Positions 30,168-37,376 of a stretch of DNA of 64,000 bases are shown here, one piece after another (the first letter of the stretch is position 1; the number at the start of each line of letters is the position of its first letter). This stretch comes from Paenibacillus sp. FSL H8-0537 (GTDB lineage Bacteria; Bacillota; Bacilli; Paenibacillales; Paenibacillaceae), in contig NZ_CP150290.1 of NCBI RefSeq assembly GCF_038051995.1, positions 4,826,001 to 4,890,000 on the forward strand. Direction: 5' to 3'. Position numbers and translations under genes: made by a program. The notes under the pieces are model-generated. The model saw nothing but the letters and a program-made list of their open reading frames with translations, ran no database searches and was not told the origin of the DNA.

Positions 30168-30240
30168 GGGGCCTTAGCTCAGCTGGGAGAGCGCATCGCT
30201 GGCAGCGATGAGGTCAGGGGTTCGATCCCCCTAGGCTCCA
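30168..30240 (+). tRNA. tRNA-Ala (GGC)
   Basis: A 73-nt cloverleaf. The acceptor GGGGCCT pairs with AGGCTCC, the D-arm is GCTC/GAGC, and the anticodon stem CATCG/CGATG encloses CTGGCAG with anticodon GGC. The T-arm is AGGGG TTCGATC CCCCT. CCA is not encoded after discriminator A240. A TATAAT box lies at 30102-30107. The 3' 16 bases are repeated at 30458-30473 and 30691-30706, and 14 of them at 37359-37372. Confidence 0.95.
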
Positions 30241-30473
30241 TATAAAAGAAACGCCATCACATTTTTCATGTGGTGGCATTTCTTTTATATGGAGAGCCAG
30301 GGGGCGAACCCCGGGGTTCAGTCCGCGCGCACGAAGCGAATGCGGAGGAGCACGGCGTCTGAATCTACCTCTAAAAGTCCTCGCCGAATACGCTTCGTCA
30401 GCCCTTTAATCAAAGATTCGGACATCCCATGATGGATTGGCGAGGTAAGCGAGGCAAATCCCCCTAGGCTCCA
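30241..30473. repeat. tRNA-linked 233-bp repeat, copy 1
   Basis: This unit begins right after tRNA-Ala. It has a long hairpin (GCCATCACAT facing ATGTGGTGGC, extended by AAAAGAAA/TTTCTTTT), then an inverted tRNA T-arm-like piece (AGGGGGCGAACCCC), then a 139-bp core starting CAGTCCGCGCGC, and it ends with ATCCCCCTAGGCTCCA, the 3' end of the tRNA. The hairpin also works as the tRNA terminator. No integrase gene is present. Confidence 0.85.
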
Positions 30474-30706
30474 TATAAAAGAAGCGCCATCACATTTTTC
30501 ATGTGGTGGCGTTTCTTTTATATGGAGAGCCAGGGGGCGAACCCCGGGGTTCAGTCCGCGCGCACGAAGCGAATGCGGAGGAGCACGGCGTCTGAATCTA
30601 CCTCTAAAAGTCCTCACCGAATACGCTTCTTCAGCCCTTTAATCAAAGACTCGGACATCCCAGGATGGATTGGCGAGGTAGACAAGGCAAATCCCCCTAG
30701 GCTCCA
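30474..30706. repeat. tRNA-linked 233-bp repeat, copy 2
   Basis: A tandem copy of 30241-30473 with only a few base changes, again ending in ATCCCCCTAGGCTCCA at 30691-30706. The exact 233-bp period shows a recent tandem duplication. Confidence 0.85.
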
Positions 30707-30737: not shown

Positions 30738-30748
30738 TGGTCGTACCC
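30738..30748. repeat. Left 11-bp target site duplication
   Basis: TGGTCGTACCC is found directly before the left terminal repeat and again directly after the right one (34439-34449). IS231-type elements of the IS4 family make duplications of about this length and favour G-rich/C-rich ends. Confidence 0.8.
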
Positions 30749-30847
30749 CATGCCCATCAAGCTAAGAACCTTAGTTTGGAATCAAGTGAGGAATTCTTCT
30801 ATTTTCATGGCTTTGTTAAATTCTAATATTGATATTTTACCATAAGA

Positions 30848-30874
30848 AAACCGCCTTAACTGAACAGGCGGTTT
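30848..30874 (-). terminator. Terminator after the RidA gene
   Basis: An 8-bp stem AAACCGCC/GGCGGTTT with an 11-nt loop, followed by TTTTC on the minus strand, 28 bp after the ridA-like stop. Confidence 0.8.
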
Positions 30875-30901
30875 ATTGAACTCCCGTCTTAAAACACCTT
30901 T

Positions 30902-31360
30902 CTATTCATCAACTTCAAATATTGAGTCAATTATGATTGGAAGATTGTCTCTAACGGAAACAGCTCCAAACACTGAACGTGCATGAATGCCCTTATCTCC
31001 GAACACGTCCAGCATAAGATCAGTACAACCATTTAACACTTTATGATGTTCTTCAAACTTAGCGTCGGCATTAACAAAACCCTGAATTTTAACCACCCTT
31101 TTCACATGCTCCAGCGAGTTTAAAGCTGATTTCAGTACAGCTAAAATTTCAATCCCAGTTTGTCGTGCAAACTGATAACCTTCTTCTGTAGTATAGTCCT
31201 GACCTAACTTACCTTTCGGGTTTCCAGTGGGCCCTTTACCTGATACGAACAATAACCCGTTTACTTTTACGAAGTTTGCATACTTAGCTGCTGGTTCGCT
31301 TGCACTTGGTAAAACGATTCCTAACACTTCTAATCTGCTTGCTATTGTTTGTTCAGTCAT
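30902..31360 (-). CDS. RidA/YjgF family protein
   Basis: A 152-residue RidA-fold protein. KVNGLLFVSGKGPT (about residue 35), LKSALNSLEHVKRVVKIQG, and RSVFGAVSVRDNLPIIIDSI correspond to the family's substrate pocket including the arginine. RidA hydrolyses reactive enamine/imine intermediates released by PLP enzymes, but this longer YjgH/TdcF-like branch has unclear substrates. GAGGGGAAG precedes ATG 31360. It is a passenger gene in the IS231-like cassette with its own terminator. Confidence 0.85.
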   Translation of the reverse strand: MTEQTIASRLEVLGIVLPSASEPAAKYANFVKVNGLLFVSGKGPTGNPKGKLGQDYTTEEGYQFARQTGIEILAVLKSALNSLEHVKRVVKIQGFVNADAKFEEHHKVLNGCTDLMLDVFGDKGIHARSVFGAVSVRDNLPIIIDSIFEVDE

Positions 31361-31548
31361 TCAAATACTTCCCCTCTTCGGAATGGAAAAATTATACTAT
31401 AACGTGAGCGGCGGGACTAAGAATAGGCTGCATGCCGGTTTTAACCAGGATTGTCTCACTTTATATTCAATCTACAACTTAATTTTCTTCGAACAGGAGC
31501 AGCTGCCACGAAGTCTGCTCTCTGGTTATTCAACTCGCTTTATCCTTC

Positions 31549-31910
31549 CTATTCATGCGAATGCTTTTTGCCGAATGCAGTCCAGTTCACAAGAAATATT
31601 CCGATGCCAATGCAAAATCCCCCTAAATAAACATACGTATGTATAGTCTCGTTATGGATGTGATGAACCCCGAGAGTACACCAAAGAACGGGGCTAAGAA
31701 CAGATAGGCGCTTGTTTTCCCAGGATCGCCATGACTTAGCAAGTAATACCATGCTGCAAATTGCACAATGGAACCCATAATGGCCAAGTACAATACAACC
31801 GACACAGAAGTTAGATTGAACGTAAGCTGCGGCGTTTCCATAACGGCACTCAGCAATAACAGAAGGAGACCGCCGAATAACTGACTGACATAAGTACAAA
31901 ATTGAGGCAT
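31549..31910 (-). pseudogene. EamA/DMT transporter C-terminal fragment, frameshifted
   Basis: In one frame, VSQLFGGLLLLLLSAVMETP to SAYLFLAPFFGVLSG (31910-about 31680) is the start of an EamA C-terminal repeat. The expected continuation, HIHNETIHTYVYLGGFCIGI followed by GIFLVNW, is in another frame down to 31549. The first two-thirds of the transporter is missing. A frameshift plus truncation make this a pseudogene. Confidence 0.8.
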
Positions 31911-31922
31911 CGGTTACTTGAT

Positions 31923-32020
31923 ATGAACTATTTAGAGGAACAAGGAAAAGATTATGTGTTAAGCGTGGAAGGTAAGGCGACGCTGCAGAATTGGGGTGTG
32001 AAAGTTCATGCCGATCAACT
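31923..32020 (+). pseudogene. ArsR-family regulator C-terminal fragment
   Basis: The plus-strand frame reads MNYLEEQGKDYVLSVEGKAT then LQNWGVKVH, matching the winged-helix wing and C-terminus of ArsR-type regulators. The helix-turn-helix is absent and the frame runs on into the antisense of the next gene. It adjoins the EamA fragment, so both seem to come from one deleted regulator-transporter pair. Confidence 0.55.
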
Positions 32021-32930
32021 AGGATTCCACAACTACGCTCGGATTAGCAGGGGAGTACTGTACGGTTCTCCAGCTTAGAGACATCGCATGACTCGTAATA
32101 ATTCCCCGTTCCAGATGAAATCGGATGATCCGCTGGGCATCCTGGAACCAGTGGGCGAATGGAGTCACATCCCATAGAATCTCGACCGTTCCCGTCAATT
32201 GAATAAGGCTGCCCGAGTCAAAATCCATGAATAACAGCCCTGCCTGCGGGTAACAGACTGCATTCCCAAGCGTATTAAACATCGCATTGCCGCTGTAATC
32301 CGGAAACACCAACGTCCGGTCATCCTCGGCTCTTACGAATCCCGGCATACCCCCGCGGTGGGATACATCCGTACCATACTGAAGATGTTGAGTTGCAATG
32401 AAGAAGGTATCCGCTTTATTCACCAGGGTCACCACTTCTTCAGAGAGCGTCTCCAGTGCCTGAGCTACCAGTTCAACGCTCGGTCCTTCTCTTAGGGTCC
32501 ATTCACGCGCTTGGATGTACTTCGGACAGTTGGAGTAGACTTGCTCTGCCCTAACTTGAAACCCGTTCGGTTGGATCTCCCCAATTCGGCCATTCAAGCG
32601 CATGCGGCGCCGGGTGGCGAAGTCGACTGCAATGGCTGCGATCGGATTGGAGGGGTACAGGCAGAGTGAGATGGGGTCCTGAGAATTAGGAACACCGTTA
32701 ATAATGGCATGCTGAGAGTCTTCTACCTTGATGAATCCGGGGGTTCCGAACCATACGGAAGCCCAAACTGCCCCATCGTCATCTGCTGCGCCAAGTATCA
32801 GAAAAGGCTGGCTTTCGAGGAACGTCTTCGCCGCTAGCGGAATCTCACTGTAAATGTTATTTTTGCGTGCTGCGATGTCCCTTACACCCGCCCGTTCCTG
32901 AACCTGAATTTCGCCCGGATGATAGTGCAT
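32019..32930 (-). CDS. Pyridoxamine 5'-phosphate oxidase-like FMN-binding protein
   Basis: A 303-residue protein with two split-barrel-like parts. Residues about 30-130 hold PFLILGAADDDGAVWASVWF and a basic DFATRRRMRLNGRIGEI; residues about 165-280 hold DTFFIATQHLQYGTDVSHRG and LGNAVCYPQAGLLFMDFDSG, the FMN-binding pattern of the PNPOx superfamily. The substrate is unknown; such proteins often reduce or oxidise small molecules or bind flavin/haem. Its ATG overlaps the VOC stop (TGATG), so the two are translationally coupled. It is a passenger of the IS231-like cassette. Confidence 0.85.
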   Translation of the reverse strand: MHYHPGEIQVQERAGVRDIAARKNNIYSEIPLAAKTFLESQPFLILGAADDDGAVWASVWFGTPGFIKVEDSQHAIINGVPNSQDPISLCLYPSNPIAAIAVDFATRRRMRLNGRIGEIQPNGFQVRAEQVYSNCPKYIQAREWTLREGPSVELVAQALETLSEEVVTLVNKADTFFIATQHLQYGTDVSHRGGMPGFVRAEDDRTLVFPDYSGNAMFNTLGNAVCYPQAGLLFMDFDSGSLIQLTGTVEILWDVTPFAHWFQDAQRIIRFHLERGIITSHAMSLSWRTVQYSPANPSVVVES

Positions 32931-33367
32931 CAGAAGAAACCACAAGCTTTCCCTTCCGTCGCCGTGTGCGCGTGGCAGCCCACACCCAGCAGCGCATAAA
33001 TCTCCAACCGGATCCCGTCCGGATCTTCGAAGAAGATCCCGCCGGAGTCTCCGCCCTCCGTATGAGCAACCATCCCATCATAGATGAAGGGAACTCCGTT
33101 CGCTCTCAATTTTTCCTCATATCCTTTAATGGTATCAACCGAATCCACTTCAAAGGCCAGATGATGCAGACCCGGCAGCCGTGGGGAGAAGCTTCCTTCA
33201 CTTTGCTGCCATAAGGTGACCAGATTCTTCTGATCATCGCCAAGCAGTGCGAATTTTCTTCCGGGTTCCTCCGATAGATTCCGCAGTGTAAAGCCCAATA
33301 CCTCCGTATAGAATCGAACCGATCTTTCTATTTCCGATACATTCAAACCAATGTGTCCCAATCTCAT
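32930..33367 (-). CDS. VOC family (glyoxalase-like) protein
   Basis: A 145-residue vicinal-oxygen-chelate protein. It has two beta-alpha-beta-beta-beta halves: RLGHIGLNVSEIERSVRFYT at the start, LHHLAFEVDSVDTIKGYEEK (about residue 68) and GIFFEDPDGIRLEIYAL (about 110). His and Glu metal ligands are in place. VOC proteins include glyoxalases, dioxygenases and antibiotic-binding or -modifying proteins. It is co-transcribed with the PNPOx-like gene, suggesting one detoxification step. AGGGGA lies upstream of ATG 33367. Confidence 0.87.
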   Translation of the reverse strand: MRLGHIGLNVSEIERSVRFYTEVLGFTLRNLSEEPGRKFALLGDDQKNLVTLWQQSEGSFSPRLPGLHHLAFEVDSVDTIKGYEEKLRANGVPFIYDGMVAHTEGGDSGGIFFEDPDGIRLEIYALLGVGCHAHTATEGKACGFF

Positions 33368-33494
33368 TTTCCATATCCCCTAACCACCAAAAATATCTTA
33401 CAGGCATTACAATACACAATATTATATAACTTGTAAATAGCTATTTTAGCGGTTAGAATTAAAACAGGAGCACAGAGAAGGAGTTGGATCAACC

Positions 33495-34088
33495 ATAGAT
33501 AAGCCCGCATTTGTTTTTGTAGGCAATCACTTTACAACTGATTTTGTGAACACCCGCAAGAATGTCAAAGGAATCCAGACAGAGCTCATCGAGTCTTGGG
33601 GTCATCTGATGAGCTGGCTGGAGCAGGCCGACAGACGGAAATGGGTGATAAGTGATCGAGAGGAGCTTACCCCTGACGAGCAGGACACCATCATTCAAAA
33701 GATCCTGATCATTCGCAGCCGGATTGAACAGGCATTTACCCAAATCATTCAGGAACAATCCATTCCGGCCTCGATCGTCACTTTTCTCAATCAAGAGTTG
33801 GCGCGTTACCGCAGTTATTATCAAATCGAGGCAGGCGATCAGGAACGTCCATTCACCACTGTCAGAAACTACGAGATCACGCAGCTGCCCGCCTTGTTCC
33901 TGGAAGAGGCCTGCCTCTTCTTCACGACATTCAAACTGGCTAATCTCAAGAAGTGTGAGAATCATGCCTGCATCCTGTTCTTCTACGATAGCAGCCGCAA
34001 TCAGCAGCGCCGCTGGTGCAGCATGGACAAGTGCGGGAATCGCGTCAAAGTAAATCAGCACTACCACCGCAAGAAAAACCAGGAATAA
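33495..34088 (+). CDS. CGNR zinc-finger (ABATE domain) putative regulator
   Basis: About 197 residues. The C-terminus has the CGNR finger: KKCENHACILFFYD, then RRWCSMDKCGNRVKVNQHY, with four cysteines. The N-terminal FVGNHFTTDFVNTRKN is the conserved ABATE start. This motif lies upstream of the first regular start (GTG 33546). The in-frame codon at the expected start (33495, after AAGGAG) is ATA, not ATG. Either ATA is used or the gene now starts within the motif. CGNR proteins are putative transcription regulators, and this one is divergent from the VOC-PNPOx pair. Confidence 0.72.
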   Translation: MDKPAFVFVGNHFTTDFVNTRKNVKGIQTELIESWGHLMSWLEQADRRKWVISDREELTPDEQDTIIQKILIIRSRIEQAFTQIIQEQSIPASIVTFLNQELARYRSYYQIEAGDQERPFTTVRNYEITQLPALFLEEACLFFTTFKLANLKKCENHACILFFYDSSRNQQRRWCSMDKCGNRVKVNQHYHRKKNQE

Positions 34089-34092
34089 AAAA

Positions 34093-34142
34093 AGAGGGGA
34101 TGACTTAAAAGTAGAAGAACCTACTTCCAAGACATCCCCTCT
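34093..34142 (+). terminator. Terminator after the CGNR gene
   Basis: A 10-bp outer stem AGAGGGGATG/CATCCCCTCT encloses AAGTAG/CTACTT. It begins 5 bp after the stop. No T-run follows on the plus strand, but an A-run precedes it. Confidence 0.65.
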
Positions 34143-34318
34143 TCACCGTTACAATCCGTAAATTCCCTCCGCAGCTTCTGGACCGAAGATTCGCCGTCTT
34201 TACCGAGCTTCATACAAATAGAATGGTATTCCTTTTTGCATGTCGGAGTCTCAAGGAACGTTAGCCAAACTTCTAATGTGATGGGGACTACCCCCATCCA
34301 TTCAGATAGGAGTACCGC
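34143..34318. other. Non-coding or unrecognised segment inside the cassette
   Basis: A 66-codon minus-strand frame (34121-34321) spans this segment but has no ribosome site and overlaps a terminator. I see no recognisable domain in it. Confidence 0.4.
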
Positions 34319-34320
34319 CA

Positions 34321-34438
34321 CATGCCCATCAAGCTAAAATCTTCGACTACCCTAAAACGAAAAAAGCTATCCTTTATTTAAGAAAAATAGCTTTTTTTCG
34401 TTTTGGGGGTGTATTAATTTCTTAGCTGGATGGCTATG
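34321..34438. repeat. Internal IS231-like repeat and hairpin near the cassette right end
   Basis: CATGCCCATCAAGCTAAAAT at 34321-34340 has the orientation of a left terminal repeat and faces the right repeat at 34419-34438, enclosing an 18-bp hairpin (AAAACGAAAAAAGCTAT with ATAGCTTTTTTTCGTTTT). The segment looks like a 118-bp internally deleted IS231-like element, but it lacks its own target duplication. Confidence 0.6.
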
Positions 34439-34449
34439 TGGTCGTACCC
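34439..34449. repeat. Right 11-bp target site duplication
   Basis: TGGTCGTACCC is identical to 30738-30748 and abuts the right terminal repeat. Confidence 0.8.
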
Positions 34450-34489
34450 CTGAAATCGCCCGATCTCTAAGCATGAAAGGCTGTCCTTT

Positions 34490-34585
34490 TACGTCAACTG
34501 GTTCAATAAGCATCGGATTCACGGAACACTGGAATACATGACACCTGTTCAGTATCGACATGCAGCCCTTAAAAAAGCTGTCTGA
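34490..34585 (+). pseudogene. IS3-family transposase C-terminal remnant
   Basis: Thirty-one codons ending in TGA read YVNWFNKHRIHGTLEYMTPV then QYRHAALKKAV, the characteristic C-terminus of IS3-family (IS150-type) OrfB integrases. The DDE catalytic part is missing and no start is present. It lies directly beyond the IS231-like cassette. Confidence 0.82.
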
Positions 34586-34840
34586 TTTACTGTTGATAAT
34601 CCAATCATCCAACGGGGTATTGTTTTCCTTCGTCAGTTTCGCGTTGAGCATTCCTAGCACTAATAAAGCACTTTACGCACTAAAGCCCTTGTTCTGTTGC
34701 ATGAAGTAACAAAACAAGGGCTTGATTAAATTAACTTTCATTGCAAGCAGCAACGGAATGAAGTGCATGGCACCTGAAGCATTTCTCTGATGTATGCTGA
34801 AGTTTTATGAACAATCCATACTTCAACGAGGTACTCCCAT
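34586..34840. other. Intergenic region with a strong hairpin
   Basis: No gene is recognised. AAGCCCTTGTTCTGTT (34683-34698) and AACAAAACAAGGGCTT (34708-34723) form a 16-bp stem with one mismatch and a 9-nt loop, probably a bidirectional terminator for the XRE regulator gene on the minus strand. Confidence 0.6.
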
Positions 34841-36941: not shown

Positions 36942-37186
36942 TGTATTCAAAATAAACAACAGAATTCATCAGTGTCGGGCTATTGCCACTTATCTCGCAG
37001 GATATGCATATCTCGATAGCTACAGCCGGATAAACCGTTTCCTTACACGCTCTTGGGGTAACTTTAGGGGCACCAATTCTTTGACATCCCATTTAGCTCG
37101 TAAATCAAGCACTGGTTTTAGCTTTGAGCCAAAAATATTGTATAATATCTTTCGACTTTGGGGTGTGTAATATTCCTATGTGGTAG
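36942..37186. other. Intergenic region before the third tRNA-linked module
   Basis: No gene is recognised. A TATAAT box at about 37140-37145 lies 40 bp before the tRNA-like segment, similar to the spacing upstream of the real tRNA gene. Confidence 0.4.
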
Positions 37187-37372
37187 ACCGCATCGCTGGC
37201 AACGATGCGGTCAGGGGTACAGTCCGCGCACACGGAGCGAATGCGGAGGAGCACGGCGTCTGAATCTACCTCTAAAAATCCTCACCGAATACGCTTCTTC
37301 AGCCCTTTAATCAAAGATTCGGACATCCCCTGATGGATTGGCGAGGTAAACGAGGCAAATCCCCCTAGGCTC
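37187..37372. repeat. Third, diverged copy of the tRNA-linked module with a tRNA-like arm
   Basis: GACCGCATCGCTGGCAACG begins a stretch closely matching tRNA-Ala from the D-arm to the T-stem (to AGGGGT). It is followed by the same 139-bp core (37220-37358) as in the 233-bp repeats and then ATCCCCCTAGGCTC, the tRNA 3' end. The D-arm 5' part and acceptor 5' strand are missing, so it is a broken tRNA with the core inserted in the T-loop. It ends 5 bp before the TetR stop. Confidence 0.8.
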
Positions 37373-37376
37373 TTCC

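Follow-up and report, generated by a model that had tools for sequence, protein, structure and literature searches.

An IS231-like mobile insertion cassette without a transposase gene in Paenibacillus sp. FSL H8-0537

Results

Ends and target site of the unit

Analysis of a 64,000-nucleotide stretch of the genome of Paenibacillus sp. FSL H8-0537 (contig NZ_CP150290.1, positions 4,826,001 to 4,890,000; hereafter the window, to whose numbering positions refer) identified a unit of 3,690 bp (30749-34438) which is almost certainly an IS231-group unit inserted by transposition. The features that delimit it are as follows:

30738-30748, left copy of the 11-bp target duplication TGGTCGTACCC, 11/11 identical to the right copy
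34439-34449, right copy of the 11-bp target duplication TGGTCGTACCC, 11/11 identical to the left copy
30749-30768, + strand, left terminal repeat CATGCCCATCAAGCTAAGAA, IS231-like (20/20, 0 mismatches)
30749-30808, + strand, IS-derived terminus of 60 bp, 90% identical to the outer (transposase-3') IS end and 85% to the inner cassette end of a second genome, G050
34321-34340, + strand, internal copy of the terminal repeat (2 mismatches)
34321-34438, MITE-like palindrome of 118 bp forming the right end of the unit
34419-34438, - strand, right terminal repeat CATAGCCATCCAGCTAAGAA, inverse of the left (17/20, 3 mismatches)

A preliminary description of the window had recorded terminal repeats with a 17/20 inverse and a perfect 11-bp duplication around them, and both were borne out at 30749-30768 and 34419-34438 and at 30738-30748 and 34439-34449, respectively. 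When up to three mismatches were allowed, the end pattern matched three times in the window, against 0.01 matches expected from 100 shuffles. According to the available text of a 2008 survey, IS231-subgroup elements have ends of the form CAT-------AA--TAA--- and direct repeats of 10-12 bp (PMC2266710). The left end of the unit carries 8/8 and the right end 7/8 of these signature bases, and its 11-bp duplication falls inside this range. Two inverted IS repeats (20/20 and 17/20) thus bracket the unit in the manner of a mobile insertion cassette (MIC), and a target duplication marks its transposition as a unit both here (11/11) and, with a different 11/11 sequence, in G050.

The earlier inventory of ends was correct for the two outer ones and overlooked the third copy (34321-34340) together with the palindrome. 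As positions 34309-34450 fold as a long palindrome (z = -8.3) and similar palindromes to that of 34321-34438 are present in relatives, this segment is here named MITE-like.

The surroundings are also repetitive. A tRNA-Ala(GGC) gene and, after it, a tandem pair of 233-bp copies (96% identical to one another), each repeating the 3' end of the tRNA, occupy 30168-30690; a third, partial copy of the 233-bp repeat occurs 6.7 kb on (37126-37375), and related copies of this tRNA-Ala-associated repeat are present in other genomes. To the right of the cassette, positions 34489-34600 recur at 82-89% identity in many relatives and by eye resemble the C-terminal end of an IS3-type transposase.

Cargo genes

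The genes and gene remnants between the ends are:

30902-31360, - strand, RidA/YjgF-family gene, 152 aa (PF14588, PF01042)
31545-31881, - strand, EamA-family exporter gene (Pfam EamA, 31623-31910), truncated with its N-terminal half gone; 289 aa and open in G050
31909-31984, + strand, remnant aligning with sequence of G050 and G091 in which G091 has a regulator gene of ArsR type (identified by eye)
32019-32945, - strand, PNPOx-family flavoprotein gene (PF01243, PNPOx_N); the ATG at 32930 is probably the start, giving 303 aa as in P0001
32930-33367, - strand, VOC/glyoxalase-family gene, 145 aa (PF00903)
33546-34088, + strand, divergent CGNR zinc-finger regulator gene (PF11706), its frame open upstream to at least 33480

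The RidA, PNPOx, VOC and CGNR genes, which are the passengers expected of an MIC, had been named beforehand and each was confirmed by a Pfam domain, while the truncated EamA exporter gene and the ArsR-type remnant had been missed. The VOC stop overlaps an in-frame PNPOx ATG within the TGATG at 32928-32932, which fits the translational coupling predicted for these two genes, and the CGNR gene was confirmed to lie on the opposite strand to both. The CGNR frame runs on 5' of its first ATG/GTG/TTG codon (33480-33546) with conserved-looking residues and a good ribosome site upstream; an ATA occupies the expected start, with the same bases in the window, in G050 and in Paenibacillus sp. P96.

The PNPOx search gave 18 named loci; VOC was found nearby in 13 of these and CGNR in 10, in 10/10 cases on the opposite strand, and nine, with the P96 copy among them, have both genes in the same divergent arrangement as the window. 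RidA was found at none of the 18 (E <= 1e-8). VOC, PNPOx and CGNR are clustered at other loci and RidA was not found there; they are therefore a conserved cluster turned cargo, with RidA and the exporter as extras. Unlike that cluster, the copy in the window is mobile cargo and is accompanied by RidA and an exporter remnant. Judging from the names of the protein families, the cargo may be a CGNR-regulated set directed against a reactive small molecule, with a role in stress or detoxification. A fosfomycin-type function of the VOC protein was rejected, the Fos models scoring far below their cut-offs (25 of 32 families listed). No PDB sequence match to the PNPOx protein was found at E <= 0.001, and no literature on a CGNR zinc finger as a regulator with the VOC family was found among the titles and abstract openings searched.

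A second copy of the cargo beside a broken insertion sequence

The passenger set was also sought in other genomes and was found between the same kinds of end in G050, which by kinship belongs to the same genus. There it lies at another locus in a unit of 6,266 bp, which is flanked by a different but likewise perfect 11-bp duplication, TGGGCTCACCC (read on the opposite strand), a result that supports the earlier reading of the window unit as an MIC. The cargo DNA of the two copies is 98.1% identical over 1,137 bp and 97.5% over 2,389 bp (92% in the last 106 bp), whereas in homologous parts of the two chromosomes the identity is 67-74% (19.9-kb test). The flanks of the window unit do not correspond to those of the G050 unit, no counterpart of the window insertion site was found in G050, and one flank of the G050 unit has just two short matches in the genome of FSL H8-0537. 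Because cargo of 97.5-98.1% identity occupies different sites in chromosomes that are 67-74% identical, we read the window unit as a horizontally spread mobile insertion cassette.

The copies differ by internal deletions. The window is without 625 bp and 356 bp of G050 sequence across the EamA and ArsR-type genes, two gaps that the preliminary description overlooked. Over this region G091 matches G050 at 85% (1,441 bp) and has an open EamA-like frame of 301 aa and an open ArsR-type frame of 251 aa, so the 625 and 356 bp represent losses in the window. Conversely, G050 is without approximately 47 bp of the inner half of the MITE that is present in the window.

Within the G050 unit two open transposase pieces are followed by an 11-bp spacer (GGGCACGGCCA) and then by the cassette's own left end; the duplication encloses the IS and cassette together, not the cassette by itself. 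Against the IS4-family model NF033592 (cut-off 115) the two pieces scored 116.6 and 113.4 bits, that is, one above and one just below, and the transposases of genomes G007 and G183 were above it. The Y(2)R(3)E(6)K motif of IS4-family DDE transposases, YSLRWQIEILFKTWK, was read by eye in this cognate IS. The IS beside the G050 cassette is thus a broken, IS4-family, IS231-like element, and the IS231-like label given earlier to the window unit is upheld by the end signature, the 11-bp duplication and this neighbouring transposase. Of eight other units (described below), six match the left end of the window unit over just 18-21 bp and two not at all. The junction of IS remnant and cargo is common to the window and to the inner cassette end of G050, which suggests that a transposase-free form may be older than either copy. 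In G050 (locus L040, 9076-9126) the ends of IS and cassette that meet across the 11-bp spacer are near-perfect inverted copies sharing TCAAGTGGAGGA, as though one end had been overwritten with a copy of its neighbour.

Paenibacillus sp. P96 contains PNPOx-VOC-CGNR at 97.8% over 2,072 bp plus short remnants of neighbouring cassette sequence. No IS231-type ends were found around this core, but the G050 copy has the boundary, and the ends of the window unit bear the IS231-subgroup signature. In a set of one genome per species, the core was present at >=98% identity in 3 of 394 family genomes, namely FSL H8-0537, G050 and G250, the last apparently the P96 genome (two candidates scored per genome). 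An empty site, with the two window flanks adjoining, was not seen among the matches listed for 99 genomes including FSL H8-0537 (three candidates per genome).

Transposase genes in the host genome

With the two open G050 transposase pieces as queries no homology was detected in the window at E <= 1e-3, in agreement with the earlier statement that the unit has no transposase, and the open reading frames inside the unit are accounted for by other genes, as in an MIC. In the host genome as a whole a G007-type transposase was not found at E <= 1e-60 (matches in 11/394 family genomes), as was the 208-aa piece of the G050 transposase at E <= 1e-20 (matches in 4/99 relatives); there are 13 DDE_Tnp_1 matches, and the end pattern (<=3 mismatches) occurs only at the three sites in the window. 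An IS231/IS4 transposase with matching ends was thus found beside the same cargo in G050 and not in the host genome and, since no cognate transposase was found there, the cassette is probably stranded.

Modular units in relatives

We examined 32 stretches around MITE and transposase matches, with 71 end-like sites; the window and G050 were included and the P96 locus was not. A perfect 11-bp duplication flanked 7/35 left-right pairs within stretches, the window and G050 among them, the seven being six long units and one 113-bp MITE in G235, compared with 5/1,203 pairs in a cross-stretch control in which 10-12 bp were allowed. Eight further units in relatives consist of transposase, cargo and MITE-like end, with other genes and with duplications of 11-12 bp (0-1 mismatch), and there are ten long units with 0 or 1 mismatch in the duplication. 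It is perfect in the window, G050, G007 C6, G096, G003 C1, G411 and the G183 unit at 4.95 Mb, and has one mismatch in G007 C1, the G183 unit at 1.46 Mb and G184. The outer limits of the G183 4.95-Mb unit are ambiguous, because the same 11-mer (<=1 mismatch) also follows the MITE by itself.

All nine units besides the window have a common order (9/9), with the transposase gene terminal and its 3' side outward, the cargo on its 5' side and the MITE-like end opposite. Three units (G007 C6 and both G183 units) retain an open transposase frame, and in the other six the gene is disrupted or has an internal deletion. Only a partial match to the MITE was obtained in G050, G003, G007 C1 and one G183 unit; G184 gave no BLAST match, but contains a short segment bounded by an end at either side. 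The cargo of these units is varied:

G096, PLD-type (Pfam)
G003, TetR, two SDR and F420_oxidored (Pfam)
G411, alpha/beta hydrolase and HxlR (Pfam)
G183, Erythro_esteras (Pfam)
G183, glycosyltransferase and deacetylase-like (by eye)
G007 C1, RCC1-like repeats (by eye)
G184, MFS and TetR-like (by eye)

The 265-aa ORF of G007 C6 had no Pfam match. One 7.6-kb IS231-like unit of G183 (L134, 9738-17371) has an intact transposase and cargo including erythromycin-esterase-family, two-component and membrane proteins. In a G007 unit (L113, 8228-12821) the IS231-like transposase is internally deleted, with residues 1-61 and 437-478 left, and is accompanied by an RCC1-like repeat gene and an apparent further transposase gene.

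Many stretches gave no matching left-right pair (e.g., L107, L109, L131, L167, L169, L170, L172, L173), none of six transposase modules with both own ends recognised had a perfect duplication around the module alone, and a further G007 transposase copy (L119) had a duplication of 9/11. In many cases both flanks read GGGGTNCC(R)CCA in the direction of the element, an inward orientation that plain target duplication does not explain. At L106, L109, L131, L151, L158 and L164 the same target-like 12-mer points inward at both ends of transposase modules or MITEs and is therefore inverted, not direct. The inner ends of composites are mostly of the GGGGTNCCGCCA form.

These observations may reflect a modular IS231-like transposon family in the Paenibacillaceae and relatives, a proposal to which we give an even chance. 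Its fixed plan would comprise a transposase module, exchangeable cargo, a short MITE and an 11-12-bp duplication, and the window unit would be a transposase-less, species-crossing member. Exchange of cargo would follow from the position of the inner ends, which remain beside target-like sequence of the GGGGTNCCGCCA type that would attract new insertions.

Discussion

Origin of the cassette

The account that we favour, and consider probable as a whole, is that of an IS231-group cassette moved by a transposase supplied in trans. The transposase-3' terminus of an IS231-like IS (at 30749) and a cognate MITE-like end (34321-34438) would enclose a damaged group of host genes (RidA, the EamA remnant, the ArsR-type remnant, PNPOx, VOC and CGNR), and an IS231-group DDE transposase, presumably provided by another copy, would join the two outer ends. 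The segment would then have moved by cut-and-paste and been inserted at TGGTCGTACCC, leaving the 11-bp duplication, and the helper transposase may later have been lost from the genome, so that a cassette with putative stress or detoxification cargo was left stranded.

It is possible, if rather unlikely, that a composite of IS and cassette in the G050 form was inserted at the window site by its own transposase and that the IS was subsequently lost by homologous recombination of outer and inner ends. Both of these ends in G050 are 85-90% like that of the window over 60 bp, and the first ~25 bp of the window unit resemble the outer IS end and the rest the inner cassette end, as a crossover predicts. 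However, there is no IS trace at the window site, and the inner end of G050, a near-perfect inverted copy of the neighbouring IS end over the 11-bp spacer, may have been altered by it, so that the form in the window may be the older one.

That the boundaries coincide by accident, a lone IS end and an unconnected MITE flanking host genes that never moved together, we regard as very improbable. Solitary ends and MITEs are indeed present in relatives, and chance duplication matches are commoner than for random DNA (the 5/1,203 cross pairs), because flanks share a target consensus, but G050 has this cargo at an unrelated site, again enclosed by ends of both kinds and with a perfect duplication of its own. 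Scarcely credible is arrival of the genes in a larger tRNA-Ala-associated island to which the IS231-like ends are incidental; this would accommodate the tRNA-Ala gene at 30168-30240 with its adjoining tandem 233-bp copies and the partial copy near 37126-37375, but identity with G050 breaks off at the IS231-like ends, beyond which the two genomes differ. Such an island was rejected as the vehicle because the cargo sits at a different place in G050.

Relationship to known elements

In the published material available to us, MIC231 of Bacillus cereus is described as passengers between IS231-type ends, without a transposase, mobilised in trans by IS231 transposase (PMC3913671, PMC1196294); MIC231A1 carries adp, and MIC231D is a named modular or composite IS231-MIC231 element (PMC3913671). 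The window unit resembles MIC231 in having passengers between IS231-type ends and no transposase, and differs in its passengers, its host clade and its 118-bp MITE-like right end. Passengers of IS231 are reported to sit between the left repeat and the transposase gene (PMC2266710), and in the nine related units the cargo is likewise 5' of that gene, as in modular IS231-MIC231 elements; unlike those, the nine end in a MITE-like palindrome and their hosts are of the Paenibacillaceae type, not of the B. cereus group. The IS231 subgroup of the IS4 family shares with the window unit its end signature and 11-bp duplication, and an NF033592 transposase is present in the cognate element, whereas the window unit itself, unlike IS231-subgroup ISs, is without one. 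MITEs, MICs and transporter ISs have been described, the last term being tied to the IS1595 family in the available portion of that source (PMC3129680). The window unit is like transporter ISs in that IS ends carry genes unrelated to transposition, and unlike them in its IS family and in having no transposase.

Among titles and abstract openings, with most subscription papers outside reach, no description of such a cassette in Paenibacillus and no work on IS4-family miniature inverted-repeat elements of Paenibacillus was found; the IS231 literature touching Paenibacillus that was seen there concerns B. cereus-group genomes. Assignment of the window unit to the known MIC231/modular-IS231 kind is well supported, in a clade for which this literature yielded no described cases. 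With no transposase gene to draw attention to them, units of this type easily escape notice.

The value of the finding lies in the comparison of two sites and in the plan repeated in relatives, and the degree of surprise is moderate. It provides a clear natural example of a transposase-free cassette common to two genomes that are 26-33% apart in homologous DNA, with a composite form for comparison. The habit of IS231 of carrying passenger genes, in an element which the 2008 survey, as far as its available text goes, placed almost exclusively in the B. cereus group (PMC2266710), is thereby seen in Paenibacillaceae-type genomes with varied cargo.
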